Of a stretch of 64,000 bases of DNA, positions 11,544 through 25,852 are shown one piece after another. The stretch lies in assembly GCF_000427965.1 (NCBI RefSeq), contig NZ_ATZA01000015.1, forward strand, positions 39,167-103,166, written 5' to 3'. The translations under genes and the position numbers were made by a program. How positions within the stretch are numbered: the stretch's first letter is position 1; each line of letters opens with the position of its first letter. Under the pieces are notes generated by a model, which had not been told where the DNA came from, did not search any database, and saw nothing but the letters and a program-made list of their open reading frames with translations. The stretch is from Olivibacter sitiensis DSM 17696 (GTDB taxonomy: Bacteria > Bacteroidota > Bacteroidia > Sphingobacteriales > Sphingobacteriaceae).

Positions 11544-11642
11544 AAAGGTTTTAACTCGCTGTTTCACAACTTGTTTAAAAACTGGACATCTTGATTTCGT
11601 TCTGCTGCAAGGCTAAGTTTGTTTCACTTAAATGATACTATC

Positions 11643-12860
11643 ATGAGTACAAATTATTCCTTGCTCTTCTACCTGAAGAAACCAAAAAATTACGTAAGCG
11701 GCCCAAAGCCGATCTATCTGCGTATAACCGTGGATGGAATACCGAAAGAGGTATCCACCGGACGGGAGTGCGATCCCACAAAGTGGATATCAAAGGCCAA
11801 TCGTGCCAAGGGAACTAAAGAAGACGTTAAAACACTGAACGCTTATCTGGACACCCTCGAACACAAGGTAGCGGATACCCATCTCCAAATGACCAAACGT
11901 GGCGAGGAAATAACCGCGGAATCCATTAAAATGAAATATCTCGGAAGGGATATCCCGCGAAAAACATTGCTGACTGTTTTTCTTGAACACAACGAGCAGA
12001 TGAAAGCACTATTAGGAAAAGGTTTTAAGCCCAATACACTCAAGGGATACAACACTTCCCTTTCCCATATCGAACGGTATCTGAACGAAAGCCTTAACCT
12101 AAAGGATATTGAGGTACGAAAGATGGATCATGGTTTTGTTGCCGGTTATGAATTTTTCCTCCGCTCGGCACTCGGCTGCTCGGAAGTCTCCGCCGCCAAG
12201 TACATCAAGCACCTGCGGAAGATCGTCAAACTTTGCTTAGCACATAAATGGATTACAGAAGATCCTTTTGCATTCTATAAGAATTCTGCCAAAGCGAAAG
12301 AAAAAGAATTTTTGACCGAGGACGAGCTGGAACGTATCGAACGCAAGCTGTTCACTATTCCCAGATTGGCACATGTGCGTGACATCTTTGTGTTCTGCTG
12401 CTACACGGGGCTATCCTACGCCGATGTCAAAAAACTTTCTGATGATGATATCGGACGAGGTTTCGGAGGAAAGCTCTGGATATTCACCAACCGGGAGAAA
12501 ACAGAGACCGCATCGAACATTCCCATATTGCCAAAGGCACTGGAAATCCTTTCACGCTACAGTGATTATCCACCCCCTGTTTCCAAAGGTAAACTTCTTC
12601 CAGTCCTCAGTAACCAAAAGATGAACAGTTACCTCAAGGAAATCGCAGACCTATGTGGTATTACCAAGAAACTGACCTTCCACATGGCGCGGCATACATT
12701 TGCCACCACGGTGACATTGGCCAACGACGTGCCCATCGAAACGGTATCCAAGATGTTGGGGCATACCAATATCAAGACCAGCCAACATTATGCCAAGCTG
12801 CTGGACACACGGATCGGCAGCGATATGCTAACTTTACAGAGGAAATTGGCAGGAACTTAA
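11643..12860 (+). CDS. Tyrosine site-specific integrase (IntDOT-like)
   Basis: Integrase of the island, 405 residues from the ATG at 11643. An in-frame TTG eight codons earlier is unlikely. Parts in order: an arm-binding domain typical of Bacteroidota integrases (residues 1-90), a SAM-like core-binding domain (about 100-200), and the catalytic domain. Visible catalytic residues are His347 and Arg350 (HMARHTF), His374 (LGHTNIKTS) and Tyr383 (QHYAK). The first catalytic Arg is replaced by Ser258 in TGLSYADV, the substitution described for IntDOT of CTnDOT. It follows the tRNA-Glu and most likely recombines within its 3' end. Confidence 0.92.
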   Translation: MSTNYSLLFYLKKPKNYVSGPKPIYLRITVDGIPKEVSTGRECDPTKWISKANRAKGTKEDVKTLNAYLDTLEHKVADTHLQMTKRGEEITAESIKMKYLGRDIPRKTLLTVFLEHNEQMKALLGKGFKPNTLKGYNTSLSHIERYLNESLNLKDIEVRKMDHGFVAGYEFFLRSALGCSEVSAAKYIKHLRKIVKLCLAHKWITEDPFAFYKNSAKAKEKEFLTEDELERIERKLFTIPRLAHVRDIFVFCCYTGLSYADVKKLSDDDIGRGFGGKLWIFTNREKTETASNIPILPKALEILSRYSDYPPPVSKGKLLPVLSNQKMNSYLKEIADLCGITKKLTFHMARHTFATTVTLANDVPIETVSKMLGHTNIKTSQHYAKLLDTRIGSDMLTLQRKLAGT

Positions 12861-12874
12861 TTTGCCTATGTCTC

Positions 12875-12913
12875 ATATCCGATTGGGGACTTGAAATGTC
12901 CCCAATCGGATAT
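12875..12913. repeat. Perfect 15-bp inverted repeat between integrase and Rpn gene
   Basis: ATATCCGATTGGGGA (12875-12889) and TCCCCAATCGGATAT (12899-12913) pair perfectly around a nine-base loop. No T run follows, so it is not a classical terminator, though it may stabilise the 3' end of the integrase message or block read-through. Confidence 0.7.
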
Positions 12914-12954
12914 AAGAAACATTACATAAATTCAAAATACATTATATTTGAATC

Positions 12955-13827
12955 ATGGCCAAAACAGCACAACCAACAATAGGTACTTATATCGACCCAT
13001 TAACCGATTTTGCATTTAAAAAGCTCTTCGGGAGCGAACCTAACAAGGACTTGCTGATTGACTTCCTCAACGGCGTATTCCGTGGACGGAAACACATCGT
13101 GGATCTGGTTTACAACAAAAACGAACATCCGGGCGAAACGGTAAACGAGGGCGGTGCCATATTCGACCTTACCTGTACAGGAAACGATGGGGAGCAATTC
13201 ATCATCGAAGTACAAAGGGGAAAACAGGGGAACTTCAAGCAACGTGCAATTTTCTACACCAGCCGCTTGATTACCGAACAGGCTCCAAAGGGAAAACGTT
13301 CCGAATGGGCGTATAATGTGAAAGAAGTGTATCTCATCGCGCTCTTGGAAGATTTTTCCTTGGATGCGGGTAATGAGCAAGAGTTTCTGCATGATATTTG
13401 CCTAAGTAACAGGGAGACAGGTAAAGTTTTTTACGAAGGGCTGGGGTATATATTCATTGAATTGATTAAATTTGTAAAAACGGAAGCGGAACTGGATACC
13501 GACCTTGACAAATGGCTCTATGTTTTGAAGAACATGAGTAGCATGGATAAGATTCCGGTATATCTGCGCAAACCGATTTTTGAAAAACTGTTTAATATTG
13601 CTGAATACAGCAATCTGACAAAGGAGGAAAAGACCATGTACGATACAAGTCTGAAACGCAAATGGGACAACAAAGCTGTGTTGGACTATGCAGTAAATGA
13701 GGCCGCAAAGGAGGCCAAACAAGAAGAAAAAATGGAAATTGCCCGTGAAATGAAAAAGGACGGCATTTCCGTTGAGCAGATTGCCAAATTTACCAAGCTG
13801 TCCATCGAGAAAATCGAAAAGCTTTAA
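12955..13827 (+). CDS. Rpn-family PD-(D/E)XK nuclease / putative transposase
   Basis: Protein of 290 residues of the recombination-promoting nuclease (Rpn/YhgA-like) family. The N-terminal signature YIDPLTDFAFKKLFGSEPNK is at about residues 11-30. The nuclease core shows FDLTCTGNDGEQFIIEVQRG (about 63-82), in which the Asp and the ExQ stand for the PD-(D/E)XK metal site. The C-terminal part is Lys/Glu-rich and ends in a short helix-turn-helix-like repeat (GISVEQIAKFTKLSIEKIEKL). These proteins occur in many copies in Bacteroidota and are linked to DNA mobility or phage defence. TATATTTG at 12943-12950 lies only four bases before the ATG. Confidence 0.88.
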   Translation: MAKTAQPTIGTYIDPLTDFAFKKLFGSEPNKDLLIDFLNGVFRGRKHIVDLVYNKNEHPGETVNEGGAIFDLTCTGNDGEQFIIEVQRGKQGNFKQRAIFYTSRLITEQAPKGKRSEWAYNVKEVYLIALLEDFSLDAGNEQEFLHDICLSNRETGKVFYEGLGYIFIELIKFVKTEAELDTDLDKWLYVLKNMSSMDKIPVYLRKPIFEKLFNIAEYSNLTKEEKTMYDTSLKRKWDNKAVLDYAVNEAAKEAKQEEKMEIAREMKKDGISVEQIAKFTKLSIEKIEKL

Positions 13828-13851
13828 CAGAACGCTCACCATTCATAGAGT

Positions 13852-13882
13852 AAGCCATCCCCAAAACGGACGGCTTTTTTTG
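13852..13882 (+). terminator. Terminator after the Rpn gene
   Basis: AAGCCATCC pairs with GGACGGCTT (one A-C mismatch) around CCAAAAC and is followed by a run of T. It lies 25 bases after the Rpn stop codon. Confidence 0.7.
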
Positions 13883-13915
13883 TACCCCTCGCGTACACAC
13901 GACCAACATTTCGCT

Positions 13916-13956
13916 ATCGGCTCACTATTGGTTCTTATTGGCTCGTATCGGTTCAT
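13916..13956. repeat. Four head-to-tail 10-11-bp repeats (iteron-like)
   Basis: ATCGGCTCACT, ATTGGTTCTT, ATTGGCTCGT and ATCGGTTCAT follow each other without gaps (consensus ATYGGYTCNT). The 10-base period places each unit on the same face of the helix. The array lies in a gene-free stretch of the island between the Rpn terminator and a decayed regulator. Function unknown; iteron-like protein binding is a guess. Confidence 0.55.
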
Positions 13957-14038
13957 TTCAGTAGCCTTGTTTTTAAATCTGCACACACCAAGGCATTTTC
14001 ACCGCTTAGGCCACCGAACGCAAGGCGGGGGAATTGGG

Positions 14039-14257
14039 TCAAGGGCGCCGGAGGGCAAGGCCTATGGAGCGTATCCGCGAGAAGCGCATCAGCTTCCTGC
14101 GGCTGGCGTGGAAATGGCCATGCGGGTTGCCGCAATCGTGGTGGTAGAACAATGCCGCCACTAACCCGACGTGCGTGGGCAGCAACCGCCCGTCATCTCC
14201 TATCCGCTCAAAGAACGCGCTGAACGCGTGCTTGGGTATTTCCATCCGTTCAGCCAT
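14039..14257 (-). pseudogene. Truncated mobile-element transcriptional regulator (left copy)
   Basis: The first 60 or so residues (MAERMEIPKHAFSAFFERIG, then LLPTHVGLVAALFYHHDC and SRRKLMRFSRIRSI) match the start of a regulator found in Bacteroidota integrative elements next to a MerR/excisionase-like helix-turn-helix gene. After RSI the reading frame runs into unrelated residues and stops, so the wing and C-terminal half are missing. The helix-turn-helix remnant lies just upstream on the same strand. A second, even shorter copy is at 30053-30174. Confidence 0.7.
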
Positions 14258-14492
14258 TGCCGTTACCTCCCTCCATCATTTTCCTGATGTCCTCCCTGCG
14301 GTAGTACATGCTGCCGCCCAACTTGCGATACGGCAGATACGGAGGCTTTGCAACATACCGGGCGATATGCCCAGCAGCCTGCGCACCTCTGCGCTTTTTA
14401 ACCACTCCCTGCCAAGATTGTCTTTTTCCCTGTTCCCAATGATTTGCTTGAACTCCCCCAGCATTTCCCGCTTGAACTGCCGGAGGTCTTCC
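14124..14492. repeat. Island repeat, left copy (369 bp)
   Basis: Closely similar over its whole length to 30053-30431, in the same orientation. It carries the 5' part of a regulator and a helix-turn-helix gene. The left copy is ten bases shorter because of a deletion near 14340 that breaks the helix-turn-helix gene. Confidence 0.85.
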
Positions 14493-14515
14493 CGTGTGAC
14501 GATGTCTATTTCCAT
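14276..14515 (-). pseudogene. Frameshifted helix-turn-helix (excisionase-like) gene, left copy
   Basis: Starting at the ATG of 14515 (MEIDIVTREDLRQFKREMLG) the protein follows the MerR/excisionase-type helix-turn-helix with EWLKSAEVRRLLGISPGMLQ. Compared with the copy at 30179-30431, ten bases are missing near 14340. The normal end of the domain (LPYRKVGGSMYYRREDI in the other copy) is therefore read in another frame as ICRIASWAAACTT. The DNA-binding fold is lost, so the gene is probably dead. Confidence 0.75.
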
Positions 14516-14709
14516 ATTCCCATTGTTATGTTCCCATATCCGTATATCCCGATAGCGGGGTATTGATTTGCGCCGTTTACACGGCATGTGGTATATAGAC
14601 TTTCCAAAAGGGAAGTTTGTCAACGACATCAGAAAGAACACAGGCAAGGGTGGATAGATGCCCTGAGTTGTTTTATTTCTGTTTAAAATTCCGTATACAT
14701 TGATAAGTC

Positions 14710-14928
14710 ATGCAAGAACCCATGAAGAAAAGGAAGATGGCAATGGTTGCCAACCAAGTAAAAATAGAGGGAGAAGACCTACTGGACATCCAGCTTTGGT
14801 TAGACCGTCCAGCTTCTGAACGGATAGCCGAAGTGACACGTCTGCGCAGGGCATACTACAGTTGGTTGCTCGGAACCTATCCCAAATACATGGAAAAAAC
14901 AGTTAACCAGCGGAACCATGATGTTTGA
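14710..14928 (+). CDS. Small protein partnered with a nucleotidyltransferase gene
   Basis: Protein of 72 residues, highly charged, with DLLDIQLWLDRPASERIAEV (about 25-44) followed by RRAYYSWLLGTYP. It overlaps the ATG of the next reading frame, a nucleotidyltransferase N terminus, by 11 bases. In Bacteroidota such small proteins commonly sit in front of a nucleotidyltransferase, as in two-gene modules that resemble toxin-antitoxin pairs (family knowledge, from memory). Here the partner is truncated, so this gene is probably an orphan. Confidence 0.6.
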   Translation: MQEPMKKRKMAMVANQVKIEGEDLLDIQLWLDRPASERIAEVTRLRRAYYSWLLGTYPKYMEKTVNQRNHDV

Positions 14929-15025
14929 ACAGGATTTTATCGATTTCATCCAACTTCTGAACGAGCATCAAGTAAAGTACATGGTGGTCTGTGCGTATAC
15001 CCTTTCCGTACATGGCAGGGCATAA
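14918..15025 (+). pseudogene. N-terminal fragment of a nucleotidyltransferase
   Basis: Two adjacent ATG codons (14918, 14921) open a frame reading MMFEQDFIDFIQLLNEHQVK, then YMVVCAYTLSVHGRA and a stop. This is the usual start of a Bacteroidota nucleotidyltransferase (DUF6036-like), in which VVGGYAxxxHG normally continues into the catalytic Asp-containing strand. The catalytic part is gone, and the DNA continues directly into another gene fragment. A deletion that joined two genes explains this. Confidence 0.65.
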
Positions 15026-15441
15026 ACATCCAGTACAAATACCGAAGCGGTACGGAGGAGGTGCAGGGCCAGTCCATCAGGTACTGCATGCTCCACCAAT
15101 ACTACCCCGTGGCCACCATAGTGGTGTACACGGGAAGCAAGGGACAGGGCAGGCCATCCGAGTACAGCACCAAGGTACTGGACACGAGCATCCATTTCCA
15201 GTACCGCAGCTACCACATCTTCGACCATGGAGAGGGGGAACTACTGGCCATGGACAATATCTTTGCGCTGATAGTGGTTACCTGTCAAAAGGCGTTGCTG
15301 GAGGGCAAGGCGCCAGAGGAAGAACTTGGCGAAGACAGGAGCACCATAGCACGGGCGCTGCTATCGCACGGCAGGTACGACAACGGCCGCATTATCAGCT
15401 TCTTGGTGTTCCTAAAAAACTTTATCTATGGAGTTGTTTAA
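15019..15441 (+). pseudogene. C-terminal fragment of an Rpn/YadD-like protein, cut by IS5-family element
   Basis: The open frame reads GINIQYKYRSG, then YPVATIVVYTGSKGQGRPSE, SYHIFDHGEGELLAMDN, LIVVTCQKALLEGK and ISFLVFLKNFI. This resembles the middle and end of transposase/nuclease-like Rpn relatives in Bacteroidota. The N-terminal nuclease core is absent, having been fused to the nucleotidyltransferase stub, and the frame runs into the left inverted repeat of the IS, where it meets a stop. Assignment by recollection of family sequence, moderate certainty. Confidence 0.5.
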
Positions 15442-16348
15442 ACTTTTCATTGTAAAAGAAGATTCCCAATAAAATTTCCAGTTTTGTGGTGCTAAATCAT
15501 AAAACACGGAATCAAATTGGGAATCATCGATAAAGATACGATAATGGAACATATTTTACCACATCATAGCAAGGGTAAGCGGGGCTTCCAACCCCGGATA
15601 TGCCTTGCTGAGGTGATACAGGCAATATTTTACCGGCTGAAGACAGGGTGTCAGTGGCGGGAGCTTCCGGTGGGGCACTTCCTTTCACAAGGTTCCTGCT
15701 GGCAGCATGTTTACTATTATTTCAACAAATGGAGCGGGGATGGTTCCTGGCAATCGGTTTGGGTGAACCTGCTGAAGCGTTACCGTGAGTGCCTTGACCT
15801 TTCCCCGGCCCAACTGGACGGTAGCCATACCCCGGCCAAGAGCGGTGGGGAGGCCTTTGGTTACCAAGGGCGCAAATCGGCCAAGACGAGCAATTCGCTG
15901 TTCCTTTGCGACAACTCTGGACAGATGCTGTCCATGGGAGTTCCACAGGAAGGCCAGCACCATGACCTTTATCGGATAAAAGAACTTTTCGGGGCCATGT
16001 GTGACCTGCTGGAAGAGGCCGGGATCAGCATGAAGGGTGTGTTTATGAATGCAGACCCGGGTTTCGACGGAGATGAACTGCGCCAGTATTGTTCGGAATC
16101 GGAAATCGAGGCGAACATCAAGGCAAACCCAAGGAAAGGTGAGGCCGAAGCCACCGAATACCGCTACTTCGATGAGCAACTCTACAAACGGCGCACGGTA
16201 ATCGAACACGCAAACGCATGGCTGGATAGCTTCAAGGCCCTGCTGATTAGATATGAAACCACCGCGCGGAACTGGATGTCAATGCATTGGATAGCTTTCA
16301 GTGCGCTGTTCCTAAGGAGGGTAAAAAGAATGGGAAAAGTTTAAACAA
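15434..16348 (+). mobile_element. IS5-family insertion sequence (915 bp)
   Basis: A 15-bp perfect terminal inverted repeat (TTGTTTAAACTTTTC) occupies 15434-15448 and, inverted, 16334-16348. One transposase gene fills the interior. If the true ends are one base further in, AGT flanks both sides as a possible 3-bp target duplication. The element lies in already damaged DNA. Confidence 0.88.
15517..16344 (+). CDS. IS5-family DDE transposase
   Basis: Transposase of 275 residues. The N-terminal DUF4096-like part has FQPRICLAEVIQAIFYRLKT and GCQWRELP. DDE residues are visible as LDGSHT, NADPGFD and the C-terminal VIEHANAWLDSF. It is full length for the IS5 family (IS427-like), and the stop codon lies inside the right inverted repeat. 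Both ends and the gene are intact, so the copy may be functional. Confidence 0.92.
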   Translation: MGIIDKDTIMEHILPHHSKGKRGFQPRICLAEVIQAIFYRLKTGCQWRELPVGHFLSQGSCWQHVYYYFNKWSGDGSWQSVWVNLLKRYRECLDLSPAQLDGSHTPAKSGGEAFGYQGRKSAKTSNSLFLCDNSGQMLSMGVPQEGQHHDLYRIKELFGAMCDLLEEAGISMKGVFMNADPGFDGDELRQYCSESEIEANIKANPRKGEAEATEYRYFDEQLYKRRTVIEHANAWLDSFKALLIRYETTARNWMSMHWIAFSALFLRRVKRMGKV

Positions 16349-16460: not shown

Positions 16461-16838
16461 TTAAGAGCAACTTGGGCAAATTCCTGACACGGTAAAATTT
16501 ACTTCGTGGACTTTATATTTTTTGGGTAACTTAAACTGGGGTTCCACATCTTCTAGGCAAGTGACGGTATGGCACTGTTCGCAACTAAAATGGATATGGT
16601 CGGGATGATGTTTTTCGTCACAATTATGACATTTTGCATACCTTATAACCCCATCGATATTCACGACTTTATGAATAATACCTTCGTATGTCAACCTATC
16701 TAGCACACGGTAAATCGTAAACCTATCGCACAGATCCTTCAAGGACGACTGTATCTGCGAATGTGACAATGCCTCCTCTGAACTGGTTATGAGGTTCAGG
16801 ATTTCAGTCCTAGCCCTTGTATTTCTCGTATTCTTCAT
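16461..16838 (-). CDS. Fur-family metalloregulator
   Basis: Repressor of 125 residues in the Fur/Zur/PerR superfamily. A winged helix occupies residues 1-70 (SHSQIQSSLKDLCDRFTIYR). The dimerisation and metal domain follows with HHPDHIHFSCEQCHTVTC (about 77-94) and a terminal CPSC, giving the two CxxC pairs of a structural zinc site and His residues for the sensing site. It is divergent from the ABC operon, and two palindromes lie between them, so autoregulation is likely. Which metal or ligand it senses (Fe, Zn, peroxide, haem) cannot be told from sequence. Confidence 0.9.
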   Translation of the reverse strand: MKNTRNTRARTEILNLITSSEEALSHSQIQSSLKDLCDRFTIYRVLDRLTYEGIIHKVVNIDGVIRYAKCHNCDEKHHPDHIHFSCEQCHTVTCLEDVEPQFKLPKKYKVHEVNFTVSGICPSCS

Positions 16839-16863
16839 TGCTACTACAAAGTTGATTGTTTAT

Positions 16864-16916
16864 ATCAACTCTGTTGCAATGACAAAAATAATCACTACAT
16901 TTGCAATACTGTTGCA
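16864..16916 (+). promoter_or_regulatory. Paired Fur-type operators over the ABC operon promoter
   Basis: TGCAATACTGTTGCA (16902-16916) is a near-perfect 15-base palindrome. A weaker related site, ATCAACTCTGTTGCA, lies at 16864-16878, 38 bases upstream. A promoter is built from the same bases: TTG at 16874-16876 and TACATTTG at 16896-16903, spaced 19 bases. One operator covers the -33 element and the other the end of the -7 element. The region also lies before the divergent Fur-family gene, so one repressor could control both directions. Confidence 0.8.
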
Positions 16917-16962
16917 TTAATAAGATTGTAAGTAGGTTACCCAAATATAACAATATTGAATT

Positions 16963-17664
16963 ATGATAGCAATCGAAAACACAAGTAAGTCATACAGAGG
17001 AAAGCAGGCCGTAAGTGGCCTTTCCTTGTCCGTAGCCAGTGGTGAAATATACGGACTGCTCGGGCCGAATGGCGCAGGAAAGTCAACCACGCTGAATATG
17101 CTGCTGGGCTTCCTGAAGCCTGACAGCGGCACGACCCTCGTCAACGGTGCAGATACCAGCACCAATGCCGAAGGTGCAAGGAAACAAACGGGCTATATCC
17201 CCGAAAACGTCAATCTTTATCCTTATCTGACAGGTATTGAAAACCTGGATTATTTCTGCAAGCTGGCAGGTATCCATTATAGTAGTGCGGAACTTTCGGG
17301 TATCCTTAGCACCTGTGGCTTACAGGAAGACGCCCACAACAAAAAGACGGAAGCCTATTCCAAGGGAATGCGGCAAAAAGTGGGCATTGCCATCGCCTAT
17401 GCCAAAAAGGCCAAAGTCTATTTATTGGATGAACCTGCAAGCGGCTTAGACCCCTTGGCAAGCAATGAGCTTTCCGCCTTACTTCAAAGACTGGCCAAGG
17501 AAGGAGCAGCCATACTAATGGCATCACACGATATTTTCAGGGTAAGGGAAACCTGCAATCGCATCGGCATATTAAAACACGGCGTGCTGGTTAAGGAAAT
17601 GAACACATCGGAAGTAACTGCCAACGAACTGGAAAAGATCTACCTCGACTATATGCAGGGCTAA
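16963..17664 (+). CDS. ABC transporter ATP-binding protein
   Basis: Cytoplasmic ATPase subunit of 233 residues. Walker A GPNGAGKST is at about 34-42, the signature is KGMRQKVGIAIAYA (about 138-151), and Walker B is VYLLDEPASGLD (about 156-167). It resembles the NosF/CcmA-type ATPases that work with ABC-2 membrane proteins. Two DUF3526-type permeases follow at 17 bp and then with a 4-bp overlap, so the three genes form one operon behind Fur-type operators. The direction is probably export, as for most ABC-2 systems (inference). Confidence 0.92.
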   Translation: MIAIENTSKSYRGKQAVSGLSLSVASGEIYGLLGPNGAGKSTTLNMLLGFLKPDSGTTLVNGADTSTNAEGARKQTGYIPENVNLYPYLTGIENLDYFCKLAGIHYSSAELSGILSTCGLQEDAHNKKTEAYSKGMRQKVGIAIAYAKKAKVYLLDEPASGLDPLASNELSALLQRLAKEGAAILMASHDIFRVRETCNRIGILKHGVLVKEMNTSEVTANELEKIYLDYMQG

Positions 17665-17681
17665 ACCATAAACTATTTCCA

Positions 17682-19091
17682 ATGAAACAGATTATCCTCA
17701 ACGAATGGAAAATGTTGCTCCGCATACAGGTACTGGCTTACCTCACCCTGTTTTTTATTATTGGCTTAACCCTGGTCACTTACTTAGGCATTTCACAGAA
17801 CAACAAACAGCGGGAACAGCAACAGGCGGCACAGGCACACGTCCGTGAGCAATGGGAAAGCATTGATGCCATGAACCCTCATAGCGCGGCTCATTACGGC
17901 TCTTACGCTTTTAAACCAACCAATACGCTAAACAGTATTGACGAAGGGATTAACGCCATAACGGGAAACGTACTCCGGCTGGAAGGACACGTTCAAAACG
18001 AATTAGCATATTCCGAAGCATCACAGTCCCTATCGGTATCAAAGTTCGGAAAGCTGAAACCAGCACTGCTATTGCAATATGTGATTCCGCTCTTTCTTAT
18101 TTTCCTTGCGTTCGCATCGGTAAGCAGCGAAAAAGAAACCGGGCGGCTTAAGCTATTGGTATTTCAAGGTACATCGCTTTCCAAGCTTATCTTTGCAAAA
18201 GCCCTAAGCGTATGGGCTTACGGTCTGCTGTTGCTTATCGTAACGGTCGGTATGCAGATGCTCTTAAATACGAAAGGCACAGATACAGATAGCTTCACCA
18301 GAACAGCCCTGTTATTGTTGGCTTATGCCGCTTACTATTATGTCATCACCTTGCTGGCCACTTGGTTTTCGGCAAGGCTAAAAAGCAATGCGGCATCCTT
18401 ATCATCTATGCTGGCGGTATGGATATTATGGACCATTTTCCTGCCCAAAATATGGGGCAATACGACCGACAAGCTCCATCCTTTGCCCAGCCGTCAGGAA
18501 TTTAAGACAGCTATGCAGGAAGACCGTTCCAAAGGGCTGGACGGGCACAATCCCTCCGATAAACGTTCCGATGCACTTAAACAGGAAGTGCTGGCAAAAT
18601 ACAATGTTAACAGTGTTGAAGAGCTTCCTATTAATTACGATGGGTTGCGCATGCAAGCCGACGAAGATTACGGAAATGACGTTTGGGATAAGCATTTCGG
18701 GAACAACTATGATATTCTTCAAAAGCAGAAGCAAGTGTATCAACTTTCGGGCATCTTTAACCCTTTTGCCTCCTTGCAAAGCGCCAGCATGGGCTTTAGC
18801 GGCAGCGATATGTACCATCACCTAGACTTTTTGCGACAGGCAGAAAATTACCGCCGGGACCTGATCAAAACACTGAACGAAAAGCAAGCCTACGGAGGCT
18901 CGAAAACAGGCGATTGGGGCTGGAAAGAAGGCAATGATTTTTTTAGATCCGTAAGAGATTTCGAGTACGGCACGCCTGCTGTCCGGAGTGTAGGCATTCA
19001 TTATGGAACGGATATGTTATTGCTGGCTTTGTGGGCTTTGGCAACTACATTACTTGTATGGCTCACGGCTAAAAAAATAAAACTGATATGA
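17682..19091 (+). CDS. ABC-2 type permease (DUF3526-like), first subunit
   Basis: Membrane protein of 469 residues. One helix near the N terminus (about 16-36) is followed by a large extracytoplasmic domain, then several helices between about 125 and 260, a second soluble domain, and a last helix at about 444-463. ASVSSEKETGRLKLLVFQGT (about 145-164) is the coupling motif typical of ABC-2 permeases. It overlaps the next gene by 4 bases (ATGA), indicating translational coupling. The architecture fits permeases of the DUF3526 group. Confidence 0.88.
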   Translation: MKQIILNEWKMLLRIQVLAYLTLFFIIGLTLVTYLGISQNNKQREQQQAAQAHVREQWESIDAMNPHSAAHYGSYAFKPTNTLNSIDEGINAITGNVLRLEGHVQNELAYSEASQSLSVSKFGKLKPALLLQYVIPLFLIFLAFASVSSEKETGRLKLLVFQGTSLSKLIFAKALSVWAYGLLLLIVTVGMQMLLNTKGTDTDSFTRTALLLLAYAAYYYVITLLATWFSARLKSNAASLSSMLAVWILWTIFLPKIWGNTTDKLHPLPSRQEFKTAMQEDRSKGLDGHNPSDKRSDALKQEVLAKYNVNSVEELPINYDGLRMQADEDYGNDVWDKHFGNNYDILQKQKQVYQLSGIFNPFASLQSASMGFSGSDMYHHLDFLRQAENYRRDLIKTLNEKQAYGGSKTGDWGWKEGNDFFRSVRDFEYGTPAVRSVGIHYGTDMLLLALWALATTLLVWLTAKKIKLI

Positions 19092-20404
19092 AGCAATTGT
19101 TCTCCATTATATCATTCGAGTTCCGGCATTTTGTCCGGAGCCCTTTTAAAATAGCTTCCCTGATTTTATTTATCGGGGCTGCCGTTTACGGTCTGCAAAA
19201 CGGCTATATTTTGCTGCACGGGCAAAATGCCGAGATTGAAACCATAAAGGCTAAAAACAAAGAAAACACGGCCGAAGTAATCGGCTGGTATGATGCCGGT
19301 AAAAAAGGCCCTGATGATAAACCGTGGATAGATGTTACCACCCCGATGCGGGCCATCTGGTACGCTCCGGCATCCGTTCTTAAAGTACCCTCCCCTTTGA
19401 TGCCTTTTAGCATTGGGCAAGCAGAACAGTTCGGGTATTACAAGGAGGTAACCAACGGGAGCAGCACGTTCGATGCCGACCTTTCCGAAGAAATAGCCAA
19501 CCCTGAACGACTGGCTATCGGCACACTGGATTTCAGTTTTGTGATCCTTTATCTGCTGCCGGTTTTAGCCATCATCCTGCTGTTCAACATCGGTGGATTG
19601 GAAAAAGATCTGGGGTTTGACCGTTTGATACGGGTCAATCATTCCTCATCCCGAAAATGGCTGTTGGCAAGATTTGGTTTTTATTTCCTATTGCTTACGG
19701 GAACGCTGCTTCTCCTGATGCTGATTTACGCCACCATTACAGGAGCATTGTCAGGTACATTTATAACACTGTATTTGTTGATAGTGCTATATACATTGCT
19801 ATGGTTTGCGGCCTTCTATTTTATCAACCTGAATGGGAAAGGAAGTGCTAGCCAAGCTATAAAGATGGCTTCGCTATGGCTGCTTTTCTGTGTCGTTATA
19901 CCCGGAGGCATACATCAACTGGCTTCGCTTAAATATCCTGGAAGCTATATGACCGATTACCTCGATGCCAGCCGGGACGAAACCTATAAACTGTACCGCC
20001 TGTCCGCCGATACCGTAAAGCAAAGGTTGCTGGCAGCCTATCCTGACCTTACAGAAACCCAATACGCAAAAGATACGTTGGCTAACGAGGGGATTATAGG
20101 CAATTCGGCAAGCGGACTGATCAACAAGCTAATGAAAAAGGCTGCCTTAACGGTAGAAAACAGCAATGAAGACAAGAACCGTTTTATAAGGAATACCAGT
20201 TGCTTCAATCCCGTAAGCTGGTTTCAGAACAGGATAAATGCCCTGTGCGAAACAGATTATTATGCTTACCGCCAGTACAGAACCGATATACAGGCTGTGA
20301 TCGATAAAAAAGTGGAACTGCTGCTACAAGATAGCTGGAACAAAGAAACGGTGGATAAGAAGAGGTTTCTCGAATATGTGAACGCATTTAAAACCAACAA
20401 CTGA
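19088..20404 (+). CDS. ABC-2 type permease (DUF3526-like), second subunit
   Basis: Membrane protein of 438 residues with the same plan as the preceding gene: an N-terminal helix (about 18-40), an extracytoplasmic domain, a group of helices (about 150-285) and a long C-terminal soluble part. NIGGLEKDLGFDRLIRVNHS is the likely coupling region. The two permeases probably form a heterodimer with the ATPase. It ends two bases before a small gene that belongs to the same transcript. Confidence 0.86.
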   Translation: MKQLFSIISFEFRHFVRSPFKIASLILFIGAAVYGLQNGYILLHGQNAEIETIKAKNKENTAEVIGWYDAGKKGPDDKPWIDVTTPMRAIWYAPASVLKVPSPLMPFSIGQAEQFGYYKEVTNGSSTFDADLSEEIANPERLAIGTLDFSFVILYLLPVLAIILLFNIGGLEKDLGFDRLIRVNHSSSRKWLLARFGFYFLLLTGTLLLLMLIYATITGALSGTFITLYLLIVLYTLLWFAAFYFINLNGKGSASQAIKMASLWLLFCVVIPGGIHQLASLKYPGSYMTDYLDASRDETYKLYRLSADTVKQRLLAAYPDLTETQYAKDTLANEGIIGNSASGLINKLMKKAALTVENSNEDKNRFIRNTSCFNPVSWFQNRINALCETDYYAYRQYRTDIQAVIDKKVELLLQDSWNKETVDKKRFLEYVNAFKTNN

Positions 20405-20406
20405 AA

Positions 20407-20610
20407 ATGATACCGCAAACATTTGAGCAGTGGAAAAGCTGTATCATAAACGATTGCAAAATTAACCTGACCGAAGAGTTTGCAAGGCAACGCTTGGCTG
20501 TTTACTGGGACGAGGGGAATCCCGAAACCTGCAAGTTCGTTCAGCTCTACGGAGAGCAGCATTTGCAAAACATCATTCAATGGCTTGAAATGGCCTTGAA
20601 AAGTGATTAA
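20407..20610 (+). CDS. Small conserved protein of unknown function
   Basis: Protein of 67 residues, soluble and rich in Glu, Gln and Trp (IPQTFEQWKSCIINDCKINL, then GEQHLQNIIQWLEMAL). It starts two bases after the permease stop, so it is co-transcribed with the ABC genes. I recall similar small proteins beside mobile elements in Bacteroidota but cannot name a function. Confidence 0.65.
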   Translation: MIPQTFEQWKSCIINDCKINLTEEFARQRLAVYWDEGNPETCKFVQLYGEQHLQNIIQWLEMALKSD

Positions 20611-20618
20611 AATGAAGA

Positions 20619-20792
20619 TAAGAAATCACCAAAGACCTTTTCGTTTACCTTAATCTATTACGGAAAAACTTTTGAATGCCTTTGGAACAAACAATGGGGC
20701 GGCTACCTGAATGCAGCTGGTTTTTATCGGGGCAGGAGATTGACAAAGAAAGAATAATTGCCGGTTTGCAAGATTATCTAAGAGCGAGGTAA
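20619..20792 (+). pseudogene. Frameshifted small gene after the ABC operon
   Basis: One frame reads KTFSFTLIYYGKTFECLWNK and then WGGYLNAAG. The sensible continuation, GQEIDKERIIAGLQDYLRAR followed by a stop at 20790-20792, lies in another frame. A single-base shift around 20695-20715 reconciles the two. There is no usable start codon in the first frame. It looks like a decayed partner of the 67-residue protein before it. Confidence 0.5.
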
Positions 20793-20850
20793 GAAATTGA
20801 TGCGTTAGAGACACGTTGGCATAAAAAATATAGTAGTTCTAAACTACAAA

Positions 20851-20904
20851 TGCAATATAGTTGCTATTTAGTTGGTTTATGTTTATTATTGCAACAATAT
20901 TGCA
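20851..20904 (+). promoter_or_regulatory. Paired Fur-type operators before the truncated permease
   Basis: TGCAATATAGTTGCT (20851-20865) and TGCAACAATATTGCA (20890-20904) repeat the palindrome found before the ABC operon, here 39 bases apart. A promoter-like pair, TTG at 20861-20863 and TATTATTG at 20884-20891 (20-base spacer, one mismatch to TAnnTTTG), again lies under the operators. It would drive the fragment at 20935. Confidence 0.75.
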
Positions 20905-20934
20905 TCAATCTTTACTGGAATAGCATTTACTGAC

Positions 20935-21126
20935 ATGTGGTTAATCGTAGCAAAAAAAGAGATCAAGGAAACATTCCGTAGTAAAATCTTTATCTTTTTA
21001 AGCTTTATCGTTTGGGGTTTATTGCTATTTGCTACAATCGGAGGATATAAAACCTATTCTAATATCAGCATCCAACAGAAAGAAGCGCTGAAAATGTTCC
21101 GGGACGAACTTGCTCAAAACGGGTGA
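20935..21126 (+). pseudogene. N-terminal fragment of an ABC permease
   Basis: From the ATG at 20935 the frame encodes 63 residues: MWLIVAKKEIKETFRSKIF, a hydrophobic helix (IFLSFIVWGLLLFATIGGYK) and the start of a soluble domain (IQQKEALKMFRDELAQNG). This is the usual beginning of a DUF3526-type permease, about 440-470 residues long when complete. It stops abruptly and is followed by an unrelated, receptor-like tail. It has its own Fur-type operators. Confidence 0.65.
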
Positions 21127-21202
21127 TATTTATAACGGAAATGGCTATTATACAGAGGGAATGCCTTTTAATTTTAAACTTTCGGTTGCCTTCCAGCTGT
21201 AA
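21125..21202 (+). pseudogene. Possible C-terminal tail of an outer-membrane receptor
   Basis: In the frame one base off the permease fragment, 25 residues ending NGYYTEGMPFNFKLSVAFQL and a stop resemble the last strands of a TonB-dependent receptor. The match is to general barrel-end character only. If correct, a deletion has joined a permease start to a receptor end. Confidence 0.3.
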
Positions 21203-21221
21203 AAAATATTTGCATTTATTA

Positions 21222-21236
21222 TGCAACAGTATTGCT
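21222..21236 (+). promoter_or_regulatory. Fur-type operator before the small peptide gene
   Basis: TGCAACAGTATTGCT matches the palindrome consensus TGCAAYAnnrTTGCA except for the last base. It lies 86 bases before the 43-residue peptide gene. No convincing second site is seen, and the promoter elements are weak (TTTATTATG just before the site). Confidence 0.65.
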
Positions 21237-21322
21237 ATAGTTGTTGTCTTTGAGATGTTGCACCGTAATGGGATATGCAGCCCCCATTTATTATCAGGCA
21301 TTACTTTTAAATTTCAAAAAAA

Positions 21323-21454
21323 ATGAAAGATCAAAAAAGAAAACTGACATTGGATGAACTGAAAGTGGGCGACTTTGTTACAAGCATCAGTTCAGAAATT
21401 TCACAACGTCTTGCAGGTGGTTTAGGTGCGGTCATTTCAAAAATTTTAATGTGA
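21323..21454 (+). CDS. Small peptide with a double-glycine-type leader (candidate RiPP precursor)
   Basis: Frame of 43 codons from the ATG at 21323 to TGA, preceded by an A-rich stretch. The first 33 residues (KRKLTLDELKVGDFVTSIS, then QRLAGG) look like the leaders of Bacteroidota class I lanthipeptide/pinensin-like precursors, which share an LxLDxLKVxxFVT motif and end in GG. The residues after GG are only LGAVISKILM, short and hydrophobic, with one Ser and no Cys. No modification enzyme is nearby. It could be a true precursor, a truncated one, or an unrelated membrane-active peptide. It has its own Fur-type operator. Confidence 0.45.
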   Translation: MKDQKRKLTLDELKVGDFVTSISSEISQRLAGGLGAVISKILM

Positions 21455-21838
21455 ATTGGCCTAAGATTGTGTTTCAGTACAACTAACAGCTTAACTGCTC
21501 TGGAGTAGTCCGCACCAACAACCTAAAACCATACAGGACAAAAAGAGGGTTTCCTGCTGATCATCCATCACTGAATACACCTCTCTAAACTTGTATTTTA
21601 TGTCATTGGCCTCTTTTTCATCTTGTGCAACATAGGTGCATTATGTTCTTTTGTTTATATTTGCAACACAGTTGCGATAATATCGCGAATAATTTATCGG
21701 TGCTTGAAAATAGATTTTAGAACAAACGGCCGATATCATGCTGCTTATCGTGGATGGGCTTCGTTTTATTCACTCTGATGAGCGCCATTCTGATTTTAAA
21801 AACGTCATCGAGAATAATGGAATATAAAACAGTCTTTA
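21455..21838. other. Gene-poor stretch with receptor promoter region
   Basis: Nothing convincing is encoded here. It contains the paired operators at 21626-21676. At 21750-21857 a frame overlapping the receptor start reads WMGFVLFTLMSAILILK, then TSSRIMEYKTVFNDVA and a stop. This could be the tail of a lost membrane protein, but the evidence is weak. Confidence 0.4.
21626..21676 (+). promoter_or_regulatory. Paired Fur-type operators before the TonB-dependent receptor
   Basis: TGCAACATAGGTGCA (21626-21640) and TGCAACACAGTTGCG (21662-21676) lie 36 bases apart. TATATTTG at 21656-21663 is a perfect -7 element that runs into the second operator. The start codon is 163 bases downstream, so the leader is unusually long. 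Confidence 0.75.
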
Positions 21839-24235
21839 ATGATGTGGCATAGAATTGTTGTTTTTTGTTTTACTTTTTTTATCAATCCTTTGTTTGCGCA
21901 AAAGACCTTTATCAAAGGAAGGGTTACGGATAGTGCAAATGGAATCGCTTTTATCAGTGTTGCATTGAAAAACGTAGCCCACGAAACTGATCAGCTGCAA
22001 ACATGGACGGATAGCCTGGGATATTTTCAGTTTGGAGTAAACAAAGACAATAAATATATTATCAAAGTATCTTATCTCGGCTACCAAGAGTTTATAAGTG
22101 ATACGATAGCAATAACGGAAGCCAATAATCCATTTATGTTAAACATTTCACTCAAGGAAGAATTTACCAGTCTAGAAGAAGTAGTCATTACAGGTAAAAA
22201 GCAAATCTTTGAAACCGACAAGGGAAAGATTGTTTTCAATGTGCAAAGTCTGGCTACTACATCAGGGCTTACCGCTTTTGACATGATGAAAAAACTGCCC
22301 GGCGTTACCGTTGACCAAAACGAAAACATTATACTTCGCGGGTCGACAGGGATAAATGTTTTGATAGATGGGAAAATGACTTATCTTTCCGGTGGTCAGT
22401 TAAGCAATTACCTTAGAGGAATGAGTGCCGAAGACCTCAATAAAATTGAGCTGATTACCGCGCCGCCGGCAGAGTTTGATGCTGCGGGCAATTCGGGAAT
22501 TATCAATATCATCCCCAAAAGAAATTTAAATCAAGGCTATGCGGTGGACATTCGCGGTGCTGTTTCAAAGGGGAAGTTCTGGATGAACAACCAAAACATT
22601 GCATCTAGTTTCCGCGCAGAAAATTGGAGTTTAAACGGAATGTTCGATTTCAAAACGCCGCACAGTTACACGCAAAACAAAAGCGGAAATACCATCAACG
22701 ATGCGGGAAATCTGTTGCAATTAAAAAGAGAGAATGAAAGTATTTATAAAGTAAAATTCTACACCTGGCGATTGGGCGCCGACTGGCAGTTTTTGCCAAA
22801 ACACAAAATAGGTTTAAACTATCACGGTTATTTTGACGATTTTAAAAGCTACAACAATTCTACTGTAAACAGATTAAGCTCTTCAAACGGATCGCATTCT
22901 TTTATCCGTTCCACAAACGACCTGATAGAACCTTATCATTACGATGCCCTTAATTTTAATTATCAGCATGATATAGATTCGCTCGGAAAAAAAATTACGG
23001 CAGATGCATATTTCACATCGTACCGAAATTATTCCGACGGATTGATGACAACACAAAATTACAATGCGAACGGAAATTTCCAGAACGAACATTTGCTCAG
23101 GTCATATCAACCAGGTTTTGTGAAAATAAAATCTGTTCAGACCGATACCGAATTGCCTTATGGAAAATTCTCCCTTAAAGCCGGTTTGAAATATGCCGAA
23201 GTGGAAAACGACAACCAATTCCGTTTTGATACCTTACAGACAGGAAAGTTTGTGGAAGTAGAAGCTATGAGCAACCATTTCAAATACAAGGAAAGGATTG
23301 CAGCGGCTTATTTCTCGGGGTCTAAAATGTTCGGCAAAACAAGCGTGGACGCCGGGCTACGGGTGGAGCACACTAATGCGGATGGGATCACCATAAAGCA
23401 GGATGTCAACAATAAATGGGAATATACCAAGCTTTTTCCCTCTTTAACTGTAGGACGGGTCATTAATGATGATAACAAAATAGATCTTTCGATAAGCAGG
23501 CGTATCAATCGCCCATCCTATACCGAGCTGAACCCCGTTCGTTGGTACAATGACCGGTATTTTTATTATTCTGGCAACCCCGACCTGGTTCCCGAACTTT
23601 CCTGGATATATAGTCTCACCTACAGCTTGAAACGGAAATATATTTTCTCCGCCGCTTACAATCAAAGTCTCAATTATATTAACCGTAGAGTGGTCATTGA
23701 TGATAACGGCACAACGATCAAAAGTCAGAGCGCCAATTTCGGCGCGCGGAACCGCCTTGATGTTACCTTGTCTGCACCAATAGAGCTATTCCCTTTTTGG
23801 GATGCCCAGCTCTTTTCCGACATCAGTTATACATCCTATCCCATTTCGCAACTTTCTGGCGATAAGCAGCTCTCGCAATGGTCGGGCATGTTTTCCCTCC
23901 AGCAGAATATTTCATTGCCCAAAGGATTTAACGTGAATCTCTCGGGATTTTATTATACCTCTGAATTGCGCGGTATCTACCTGACCGAGCCTGTCGGCTG
24001 GATCGATTTCGGTATAAAAAAGTCATTCCTGAACAACAAGCTGGAAGCACAGTTCAGCGTCAGTGATGTGTTGAACACCAATCGTTACTGGGCAAATTCG
24101 CAAACTGATGTTACGGATTATTATTACCGGGACAAACCTTATAGCAGAATTTTCGGTTTATCACTTCAATATCATTTCGGCGGTGAGCTCCTCAAGTCAT
24201 CCACAAGAAGAACTGAAGAACAGGAAAGGCTTTGA
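21839..24235 (+). CDS. TonB-dependent receptor-like outer-membrane protein of the Fur-type module
   Basis: Outer-membrane protein of 798 residues. The signal sequence ends at NPLFAQ (residue 20). A carboxypeptidase-regulatory-like domain follows (FIKGRVTDSANGIAFISVAL, about 22-41), then a plug with TAFDMMKKLPGVTVDQNENI (about 142-161) and AGNSGIINIIPKRN. The barrel contains the family motif RINRPSYTELNPVRWYND (about 556-573) and ends in YSRIFGLSLQYHFGGE, short of a charged tail. This is the OMP_b-brl type of receptor-like protein. Paired Fur-type operators upstream and the ABC operon before it suggest metal- or haem-linked uptake (inference). Confidence 0.88.
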   Translation: MMWHRIVVFCFTFFINPLFAQKTFIKGRVTDSANGIAFISVALKNVAHETDQLQTWTDSLGYFQFGVNKDNKYIIKVSYLGYQEFISDTIAITEANNPFMLNISLKEEFTSLEEVVITGKKQIFETDKGKIVFNVQSLATTSGLTAFDMMKKLPGVTVDQNENIILRGSTGINVLIDGKMTYLSGGQLSNYLRGMSAEDLNKIELITAPPAEFDAAGNSGIINIIPKRNLNQGYAVDIRGAVSKGKFWMNNQNIASSFRAENWSLNGMFDFKTPHSYTQNKSGNTINDAGNLLQLKRENESIYKVKFYTWRLGADWQFLPKHKIGLNYHGYFDDFKSYNNSTVNRLSSSNGSHSFIRSTNDLIEPYHYDALNFNYQHDIDSLGKKITADAYFTSYRNYSDGLMTTQNYNANGNFQNEHLLRSYQPGFVKIKSVQTDTELPYGKFSLKAGLKYAEVENDNQFRFDTLQTGKFVEVEAMSNHFKYKERIAAAYFSGSKMFGKTSVDAGLRVEHTNADGITIKQDVNNKWEYTKLFPSLTVGRVINDDNKIDLSISRRINRPSYTELNPVRWYNDRYFYYSGNPDLVPELSWIYSLTYSLKRKYIFSAAYNQSLNYINRRVVIDDNGTTIKSQSANFGARNRLDVTLSAPIELFPFWDAQLFSDISYTSYPISQLSGDKQLSQWSGMFSLQQNISLPKGFNVNLSGFYYTSELRGIYLTEPVGWIDFGIKKSFLNNKLEAQFSVSDVLNTNRYWANSQTDVTDYYYRDKPYSRIFGLSLQYHFGGELLKSSTRRTEEQERL

Positions 24236-24380: not shown

Positions 24381-25008
24381 TTATCTGATACGATCATTTT
24401 CGTCGCTTGTACTGCCATTGCTCCGTGATGTTGCTCGCGTACCACCGAAGTTCCTGGAATAGGTGACCTTAAAAATGCGGGATTTTCCTGATTCCGGAAC
24501 GTAGGTCACTTCACTGTTCAAGTTAAAGGCCTCCCTCGTTAATGCTCCGTAATAGCTTTTCAGGTTCATGGTTTTAAAAATATTAACCACCGACAATTGA
24601 ACGTTCCCCCAGTTCTGTTTCAATGTCTTTTTCAGTCCCATATTAGCGGACCCGAAACCTTTTATCTTTTTTGAACCATCATACGACAAGGCATTATACC
24701 ATCCGGAGATTTCCATCAGAAAGTCTCTATGTAGTTTGACAGCATGATTTACGCTTGCAGAATAGGTAAAATATATTTTCTCAACAGGTAAAGCTGTATA
24801 ATCTAGATTAAACCGCCGCCAGCCTCCGGTAATATGGTAATTCATATCCCACCAGTTGCCTATTTTAAAAGGCAGACCTACTAAGAGTGTTAAGTTATCC
24901 TGCCGGACAAGGTTTTGTAGAGCAAGCATCATTAAGTCCCCTGTAGAATTGGCTGTTACCTGGTTCCGTGCAATGGGGGAATCGTCTCTGCTTAGTAATT
25001 GGATATAA
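24381..25008 (-). pseudogene. 3' end of an outer-membrane receptor gene cut by IS21-family element
   Basis: The open frame on the minus strand runs out of the IS end and reads YIQLLSRDDSPIARNQ, then LPFKIGNWWDMNYHITGG, and ends about 180 residues later. These are late strands and the C terminus of an outer-membrane beta-barrel receptor. The remaining upstream part seems to continue on the other side of the IS at 27636-27774. The stop is convergent with the intact receptor gene, and the sequences differ, so it is not a simple duplicate. Confidence 0.75.
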
Positions 25009-25088: not shown

Positions 25089-25805
25089 TTACTTCTTTTT
25101 TCTTAGACTTTCGCCTTTAAGTTCTATTCTGTAAGATCCATGGATCAGTCTGTCGAGTATCGCATCGGCAATTGTGTCTTCCCCGATGACGTCATACCAG
25201 CTGGCCACAGGCAGCTGACTGGCAATTATGGTGGATGCCTTAGCGTGTCTGTCTTCAATTATCTCCATTAGATCGAGCCTTTGCTGCTGGTCCAGATTTA
25301 CCAGTCCGAAGTCATCGACAATAAGCAGGTCTGATTTTGATATTTTATCCATTAGCTTATGCAGAGTGCCTTCCAGTCTGGCCATTTTAGTCTTCAGAAG
25401 TAGTTTTTGTAGATTGAAGTACATTACTTTATATCCCTGGGCACAGGCTTGATGGCCCAAAGCTGAAGAGAGAAAGCTCTTTCCGCAGCCCGTCGCACCG
25501 CTGATCAATATGGGGTCTCCCTTTTTTATGTACTCACCGGTGGCCAGCGTAGTGATCATCCCTTTGTCCAGACCCCTGCTGGCAACCATGTTTATCTCTT
25601 CTATGGAAGCCTGATAACGGAACCCCGCATTCTGTTTAAGGCGGTAAAACCGCTTTTCATCCCGTTCATCCGCTTCTGCCTGCAGCAATAGGGCCAACCC
25701 TTCGGAAAGGGTAAGTTCTGTACTACGGCGTGTTTCATTCAGCGCTTTCCAGTTGCGCTCCATACCATGTAAGCGCAACGCTCTCATCTGTGTTTCAATG
25801 TTCAT
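25089..25805 (-). CDS. istB: IstB-type ATPase of IS21-family element
   Basis: AAA+ helper ATPase of 238 residues. Walker A ISGATGCGKSFLSSALGHQA is at about 102-121 and Walker B LLIVDDFGLVNLD at about 158-170, with DRHAKASTIIASQLPV (sensor 1) after it. Full length for IstB. It starts 47 bases after the istA stop on the same strand. IstB assists the DDE transposase in target capture. Confidence 0.94.
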   Translation of the reverse strand: MNIETQMRALRLHGMERNWKALNETRRSTELTLSEGLALLLQAEADERDEKRFYRLKQNAGFRYQASIEEINMVASRGLDKGMITTLATGEYIKKGDPILISGATGCGKSFLSSALGHQACAQGYKVMYFNLQKLLLKTKMARLEGTLHKLMDKISKSDLLIVDDFGLVNLDQQQRLDLMEIIEDRHAKASTIIASQLPVASWYDVIGEDTIADAILDRLIHGSYRIELKGESLRKKK

Positions 25806-25852
25806 CTTGTTTTATTATTGATGTATTATTCTGTTTATATATTATGGGGTTA

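Follow-up and report, generated by a model that had tools for sequence, protein, structure and literature searches.

Which repressor, and which metal, would be served by a set of 15-bp palindromes, several of them in pairs, that surround a Fur-family gene in Olivibacter sitiensis DSM 17696? The stretch in question (contig NZ_ATZA01000015.1, positions 39,167 to 103,166; 64,000 nucleotides, hereafter the window) belongs to an assembly of 5.05 Mb in 110 contigs, of which it forms part of contig C17. Below, C denotes contigs of this genome, G other genomes, and L loci, with L194 being the region of genome G546. We conclude that the paired palindromes are very probably operators of a predicted zinc-loaded Zur repressor, with one site lying in the −33 and the other in the −7 promoter element. 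With zinc plentiful, two Zur dimers would occupy both sites and shut the promoter; with zinc short, the repressor would leave, and zur itself, an ATP-binding cassette (ABC) transporter with two DUF3526 permeases, and an outer-membrane receptor would be expressed. Such a system would provide a testable zinc operator for Bacteroidota, allowing the zinc regulons of many genomes to be predicted from sequence. Its design is simple: each operator incorporates part of a promoter element, −33 or −7.

All seven palindromes listed in an earlier, sequence-only reading of the locus are present in the sequence. Across the whole window, the strict form TGCAAYANNRTTGCA has nine strand-wise matches at no more than one mismatch, which correspond to six places (16902–16916, 20851–20865, 20890–20904, 21222–21236, 21626–21640, and 21662–21676), all within 16.9–21.7 kb. 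The seventh palindrome, at 16864–16878, was rightly called weak, having two mismatches to the core TGCAA-N5-TTGCA. The sites at 16902 and 20890 are perfect, and the site at 21222, with one mismatch, stands singly at −101 from the start of a lanthipeptide precursor gene and corresponds to L194 19212. The remaining sites form three pairs with starts 38 (16864/16902), 39 (20851/20890), and 36 bp (21626/21662) apart, the spacings given in the sequence-only reading. In the closest relative, L194, the counterpart of 16864 (13319) is likewise weak and likewise 38 bp from its partner (13357), and the 39-bp pair has its equivalent at 14156/14196. Shuffling the window gave a mean of 0.61 and a maximum of 6 strict matches, with none of 100 shuffles reaching 9. 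The looser core TGCAANNNNNTTGCA yielded 7 matches vs 4.5 expected, which is not significant (19 of 100 shuffles reach 7), and at three mismatches the window lies below the shuffle mean (67 vs 79.5 matches). Because these looser forms are not enriched, site counting alone was rejected as proof, and we rely on the strict form, the pairing, and the recurrence. The palindromes are real, and the signal lies in their strict form, clustering, and pairing.

Promoters of Bacteroidota follow a −33/−7 consensus. The predicted promoter of the ABC operon (16874–16903, plus strand) consists of TTG (16874–16876), 19 bases, and TACATTTG (16896–16903); the weak site covers the −33 TTG and the perfect site overlaps the end of the −7 element, just as the sequence-only reading had placed them. 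At 20.85 kb the −7 element reads TATTATTG. At 21.63 kb the −33 position is occupied by GTG, and the downstream site of the pair overlaps TATATTTG (21656–21663). The TTGCA end of one operator would supply the −33 TTG, and the TGCAA start of the other would supply the end of TAnnTTTG.

Genome-wide, the motif does not hit hundreds of unrelated promoters: at no more than one mismatch to TGCAAYANNRTTGCA, it occurs at 34 places (47 strand matches vs 10 for a reversed control). These comprise the six in the window, two that form a pair on contig C44, and 26 others, 21 of which overlap open reading frames (ORFs) of at least 100 amino acids, one of them (on C56) only by way of an early alternative start. 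At this threshold the C44 pair, with starts 39 bp apart, is the only pair outside the window. It is located between a gene for a ZigA-type COG0523 GTPase (best model ZigA NF038288, 545.5 bits, just below the cut-off of 600) and a MerC gene (PF03203), which is followed by genes for a LolD-like ATPase and a permease. It is built as in the window: TTG closes the first site, and TATATTTG extends into its partner. Because the same paired operator thus stands between ZigA and MerC on another contig, the regulon is not self-contained. What survives of the “compact regulon” first described is the recurring paired operator at the Fur-family gene and its neighboring units.

The pair also recurs well beyond this genome. 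In a search of 395 genomes of the class for the exact two-site pattern with any gap of 6–36 bases (starts 21–51 bp apart), it was found in 26, and a slightly looser pair was found in 85 of 301 genomes of the family; reversed controls gave 0 in both cases. The starts are 36–40 bp apart in 18 of the 26 class locus pairs and, among the 75 family pairs listed, in 57, with 35 at exactly 38 bp. The two-site layout, which had been proposed as a recurring design and not a product of chance, is therefore found across a class. At 30 family loci we examined the closest flanking ORFs, one per side and no more than 400 bases away: ZigA adjoins the pair in 17, MerC in 18, and one or more of ZigA, MerC, and Zur in 22. 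A Fur-family gene lies beside the pair at 9 of the 26 class loci, and 11 of the 26 match any of the Fur, ZigA, MerC, or ABC-permease references. As a separate observation, in three related genomes (L098–L100) a DnaK-like gene adjoins pairs with a spacing of 30 bp, and L099 also has a lipoprotein-like ORF with a His motif (both by eye).

The same loci bear on what sets the distance between the two sites. TAnnTTTG runs into a site at 15 of 26 class loci and 21 of 30 family loci. Of the 52 site ends of the class pairs, 20 have TA at the offset expected and another 20 have it two bases further on (as in TATATTTG), with 0, 4, and 1 at the offsets between and beyond. Since sequence from both promoter elements is built into the operator, the distance between those elements would be enough to fix the site distance, and the spacing most likely follows this geometry rather than contact between dimers. 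Protein contact, through cooperative or looped binding, could also account for the sharp peak at 38 bp (35 of the 75 listed pairs), but we regard it as unlikely: 38 bp amounts to ~3.6 helical turns, so that the site centers would not face each other, the promoter-like elements form part of the sites, and the D49/R52 residues of E. coli Zur (EcZur) are not kept in the window protein.

That protein, the predicted zinc-sensing repressor, is encoded at 16461–16838 on the minus strand (125 amino acids; PF01475, 35.7 bits, cut-off 23.1). The proposal that the first pair lies at its own promoter is supported. Its best Protein Data Bank match is EcZur (4mtd); C70, H56, and H78 align with the ligands of one zinc site (C88, H77, and H96), and C86/C89 with C103/C106 of the other. 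A C-terminal CPSC is present outside this alignment, and E111 falls in a gap. In EcZur, C88 is a site-B zinc ligand whose mutation abolishes regulation, according to the accessible text of PMC4219657. Window-type orthologues (57–78% identity) have the pair at their own promoters in G015, G445, and G546 (38 bp) and in G111 (37 bp); of the G546 pair, one site is weak, as is 16864.

The genome encodes three further Fur-family proteins, four in total, and the paralogues on C31 and C56 share the Cys position (by eye). The C31 Zur-like paralogue (L072 4299–8974) lies beside RND-efflux-like genes (by eye), with no operator before its start. Directly after the C56 paralogue (L073 4065–4503) stands the perfect-core palindrome TGCAATCGCATTGCA, before a gene with a His-rich N-terminus resembling a metal P-type ATPase (by eye). 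When 19 such proteins were placed in a tree, the pair-bearing ones fell into several groups, with 10 of 16 inner branches weakly supported.

Several observations weigh against the reading of the pairs as zinc-Zur operators. The best NCBIfam match of the protein, Zur PRK11639, is far under its cut-off (39.3 vs 167 bits); because this cut-off is missed, we claim Zur-like function and not equivalog membership. By alignment, D49/R52, which link the dimers in EcZur, are replaced by S31/K34. The 57% orthologue in G057 has a single upstream site at no more than one mismatch. For the partial orthologue in G019 (64% over residues 43–125, L071), the matches listed around the gene include no pair and no site at two mismatches or fewer within L071 7353–9508, where the promoter would lie. 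Neither the C31 nor the C56 paralogue has a good site before its own start, and a palindrome between C56 and a gene that by eye is P-type-ATPase-like misfits simple repression of uptake. In the class, 15 of the 26 pairs match none of the zinc references (Fur, ZigA, MerC, ABC permease), and 8 of the 26 are outside 36–40 bp. In the family, 8 of the 30 loci have no ZigA, MerC, or Zur neighbor, including the window's own 20.9-kb pair.

Two further explanations concern the identity of the repressor and of its metal. In four genus relatives that we searched, the ZigA/MerC pair is present and the best match to the window Zur is only 34–36% identical; because these relatives have the pair without a close window-type Zur, a resident Zur-like paralogue (C31 or C56) probably reads the operator too. 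That such a paralogue is the actual repressor, with the window's gene as an accessory copy that uses these sites jointly or in competition, is a distinct though minority possibility. It would be in keeping with the four Fur-family genes of this genome, with those genus relatives, and with the Fur genes at L083 and L088 in other genomes, which are closest to C31 and carry the pair; window-type orthologues with the pair at their own promoters (G015, G445, G111, and G546) speak against it. As to the metal, a Fur-family regulator of iron, manganese, or nickel, or a mercury response, could draw on the family name of MerC and on the weak similarity to Zur models. We consider this very improbable, as a ZigA-type GTPase recurs beside the pairs and a Cys occupies the EcZur C88 position; genes for iron, manganese, and mercury were not searched for beside the pairs. 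An iron Fur regulon in particular was set aside on the ZigA/MerC neighbors and the Cys position, iron genes not having been searched for. The metal sensed by the predicted Zur is most likely zinc.

Relative to E. coli Zur at znuABC, as covered in the accessible text of PMC4219657, the window shares a Fur-family zinc repressor (here predicted), two dimers that would cover the promoter core, and the C88 position. In E. coli a single overlapping box holds both dimers, bridged through D49/R52, whereas the window has two separate 15-bp palindromes of another sequence, 36–40 bp apart, with one per promoter element. COG0523 GTPases such as ZigA are described as Zur-regulated in the accessible portions of PMC2770081 and PMC8000910, and the paired operator here likewise stands before a ZigA-type gene. 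TGCAA as the start of a word is absent from the main text, figures aside, of these two papers and of the Zur review PMC6103462. Within the accessible parts of the open-licence literature on Bacteroidetes Zur, zincophores, lanthipeptides, and pinensins, we found no Zur box of Bacteroidota, no instance of this operator, and no zinc-regulated lanthipeptide.

The operon behind the first pair encodes an ABC transporter ATP-binding protein (16963–17664, plus strand; PF00005), which is 77.6% identical to the L194 copy and 65–72% identical to copies in G083, G131, G148, G339, and G372. It is followed on the same strand by an ABC-2 permease with DUF3526 (17682–19091; PF12040 and PF12679), with homologues at 51–57% in five other class genomes, and by a second DUF3526 permease (19088–20404; PF12040, 28.5 bits, cut-off 25). 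G083 and G372 have the pair upstream of their homologous ABC operons, and G131, G339, and G148 have one or more good sites there; a ZigA-like gene is nearby in G083, G372, G339, and G148, and not in G131. In G372, the pair lies between the ABC/DUF3526 operon and a Zur-like gene transcribed divergently from it, and further along the operon come a MerC-like gene (by eye) and ZigA. Because operators and ZigA/Zur-like genes adjoin the homologous operons, the ABC/DUF3526 set tends to occur within operons presumed to respond to zinc starvation. Next in the window is a small ORF of 67 amino acids (20407–20610, plus strand) that resembles, by eye, one found next to the Zur gene and the paired site in L158; window 20404–20590 aligns to L194 10706–10521. 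The pair at 21626/21662 precedes a gene for an outer-membrane beta-barrel of 798 amino acids (21839–24235, plus strand; PF14905, 318 bits), a probable TonB-type receptor that is 64.6% identical to the L194 copy and whose Plug match, at 23.7 bits, is just under the cut-off of 23.9. A fragment of a second outer-membrane beta-barrel gene lies at 24381–24932 on the minus strand (PF14905, 65.9 bits).

Four transcription units had been described, and operators do stand before all of them; two, however, are broken genes left by deletions relative to L194, to which the window aligns in blocks at 16462–17664, 20849–21113, 21122–21428, and 22179–24233. The first (20935–21126, plus strand) is the cut N-terminus of another DUF3526 permease, with 20849–21113 aligning to L194 14154–14419 at 72.7%; the L194 counterpart has 470 amino acids, with DUF3526 present. 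At the deletion junction (21113–21122), the alignment jumps from L194 14419 to 19110, such that ~4.7 kb of L194 is absent from the window, and it resumes over 21122–21428 (L194 19110–19416, 77.7%). The second (21323–21454, plus strand) is a cut lanthipeptide precursor that has kept its pinensin-type leader (NF038180, 27.4 bits, cut-off 24) and lost its core. It diverges from L194 after the leader, at ~21428, and following the leader GG it reads LGAVISKILM, with no Cys and no His. By eye, there is no LanB or LanC among the window ORFs, and the single PF14028 match of the genome is on contig C14. This ORF is a remnant, not a working member of its family.

An intact version is found in G546, a member of the same family of bacteria. 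The complete region there encodes Zur (77.6%), the ABC ATPase (77.6%), and two permeases, of which the first alone was tested for DUF3526, and has a pair 40 bp apart between the ATPase and permease genes; the order goes on with a TonB receptor, an operator, the lanthipeptide precursor, LanC, two LanB parts, a C39 exporter, and a receptor-like gene. On the other side are ZigA and a receptor 64.6% identical to that of the window. Genes for ParA-like, relaxase, and YWFCY/TraG coupling proteins lie beside the Zur and lanthipeptide genes (L194 275–3505 and 10902–12902). Because relaxase and coupling-protein genes occur in the same stretch, the G546 island is probably a mobile element, likely conjugative with zinc cargo. 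The window's units at 20.9 and 21.3 kb are remnants of a larger, probably Zur-controlled lanthipeptide island.

How general is the link between operator and peptide? The pinensin-leader model NF038180 has matches in 15 of the 301 genomes of the family, and a single genus (g14, probably Pedobacter) accounts for 12 of these. An operator at no more than one mismatch stands 97–110 bases before the start codon in 14 of the 15 precursors, window included, a count that does not represent 14 independent events since 12 of the 15 come from that one genus. Thirteen of these 14 are intact with a His-rich core; the exception without operator, L176, has a Cys-rich core and no His. Among the matches listed, 5 of the 15 precursors have a second site within 34 bp (at most one mismatch). 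The class search, in which no more than 20 initial candidates were scored for some genomes, gave 25 further loci; among the 21 parsed (that is, excluding L206, L214, L217, and L220), neither the operator nor a THT core was found in any. In a protein database, THT, TD, and two Cys are kept in 16 of 16 peptide homologues.

We also surveyed loci of related C39 exporters, retaining the 80 best among 547; several of these are short contigs, which makes the absence of a permease weak evidence. A His-rich precursor is present in 14 of these 80 named loci, all 14 having both LanB parts and a DUF3526 permease match, and no such permease match was obtained in the other 66. The operator precedes the precursor in 9 of the 14 (Pedobacter, Sinomicrobium, and Sphingobacterium) and in 0 of 5 from Chitinophaga (L232–L236), where no credible site at no more than one mismatch was found before the precursor; L236 has one 1-mismatch core match, seemingly inside the upstream gene, and at −98 in L232 there is a form with two mismatches. 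Of the 66 other loci, 5 contain single perfect cores (L237, L271, L275, L281, and L288). The operator, the His-rich core, and the DUF3526 transporter go together, with Chitinophaga as the exception for the operator. Four of the Chitinophaga loci (L232, L233, L235, and L236) show short ATTGC..GCAAT palindromes ~60–70 bases before the start (by eye), perhaps another operator.

Because the operator precedes 14 of 15 precursors, 13 of them intact with a His-rich core, these results suggest a zinc-controlled, perhaps zinc-binding, lanthipeptide; zinc binding by the peptide is a guess from its residues and the switch. If the operator before the peptide gene is read by Zur, the peptide would be a zinc-starvation product, possibly a zinc scavenger. 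With slightly less than even confidence, we propose that the intact relatives produce a zincophore of ribosomal origin. It would be a class I lanthipeptide, with PTHTxxTD...H...C...C conserved in its core, that would be switched on by Zur through the operator, exported by the C39 protein, and retaken with zinc through the TonB receptor and the DUF3526 ABC transporter. In G546 it would travel with its own zur beside relaxase and coupling-protein genes, and the window would be the wreck of such an island. A lanthipeptide family whose sole annotation is pinensin-type would thereby be tied to zinc starvation, and an orphan peptide whose core has conserved His, Asp, and Cys would become a directly testable metallophore candidate.

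The pinensins are reportedly class I lanthipeptides. The operator-linked peptides share with the pinensin family (NF038180) the leader and, in G376 and G546, a LanB in two parts, LanC, and a C39 exporter beside the precursor; they differ in the PTHT..TD..H core with two Cys, the Zur-type operator, and the linked DUF3526 permeases and TonB receptor. Zincophores made under Zur control and presumably taken up via TonB-dependent receptors are described in the accessible text of PMC10957091, and that of PMC9248904 cites S,S-ethylenediaminedisuccinic acid (S,S-EDDS) as a Zur-controlled zincophore. The candidate described here would share biosynthesis under Zur and presumed TonB-dependent uptake; unlike these, it is a ribosomal peptide, and its zinc binding is putative.

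The leader before the precursor (window 21228–21322) contains a conserved GGGGATAAGCCGAAACCCC hairpin followed by AGTAGGCAT in 14 aligned sequences (the window, L175, L177–L182, L184, L188, L232, L233, L235, and L236). GCC and GGC could pair as a pseudoknot, and 3 of 5 predicted pairs have changes on both sides. The hairpin is kept in Chitinophaga too and is damaged in the window; for five of these loci, an Rfam search produced no match at E values up to 1.

The window cluster is flanked by mobile elements. Upstream (11619–16344) are an integrase-like ORF (by eye) and an Rpn-family nuclease, and then an IS5 transposase (15517–16344, plus strand; NF033580, 134 bits, cut-off 110). Downstream, at 25089–27448, two ORFs resemble an IS21 pair (by eye).

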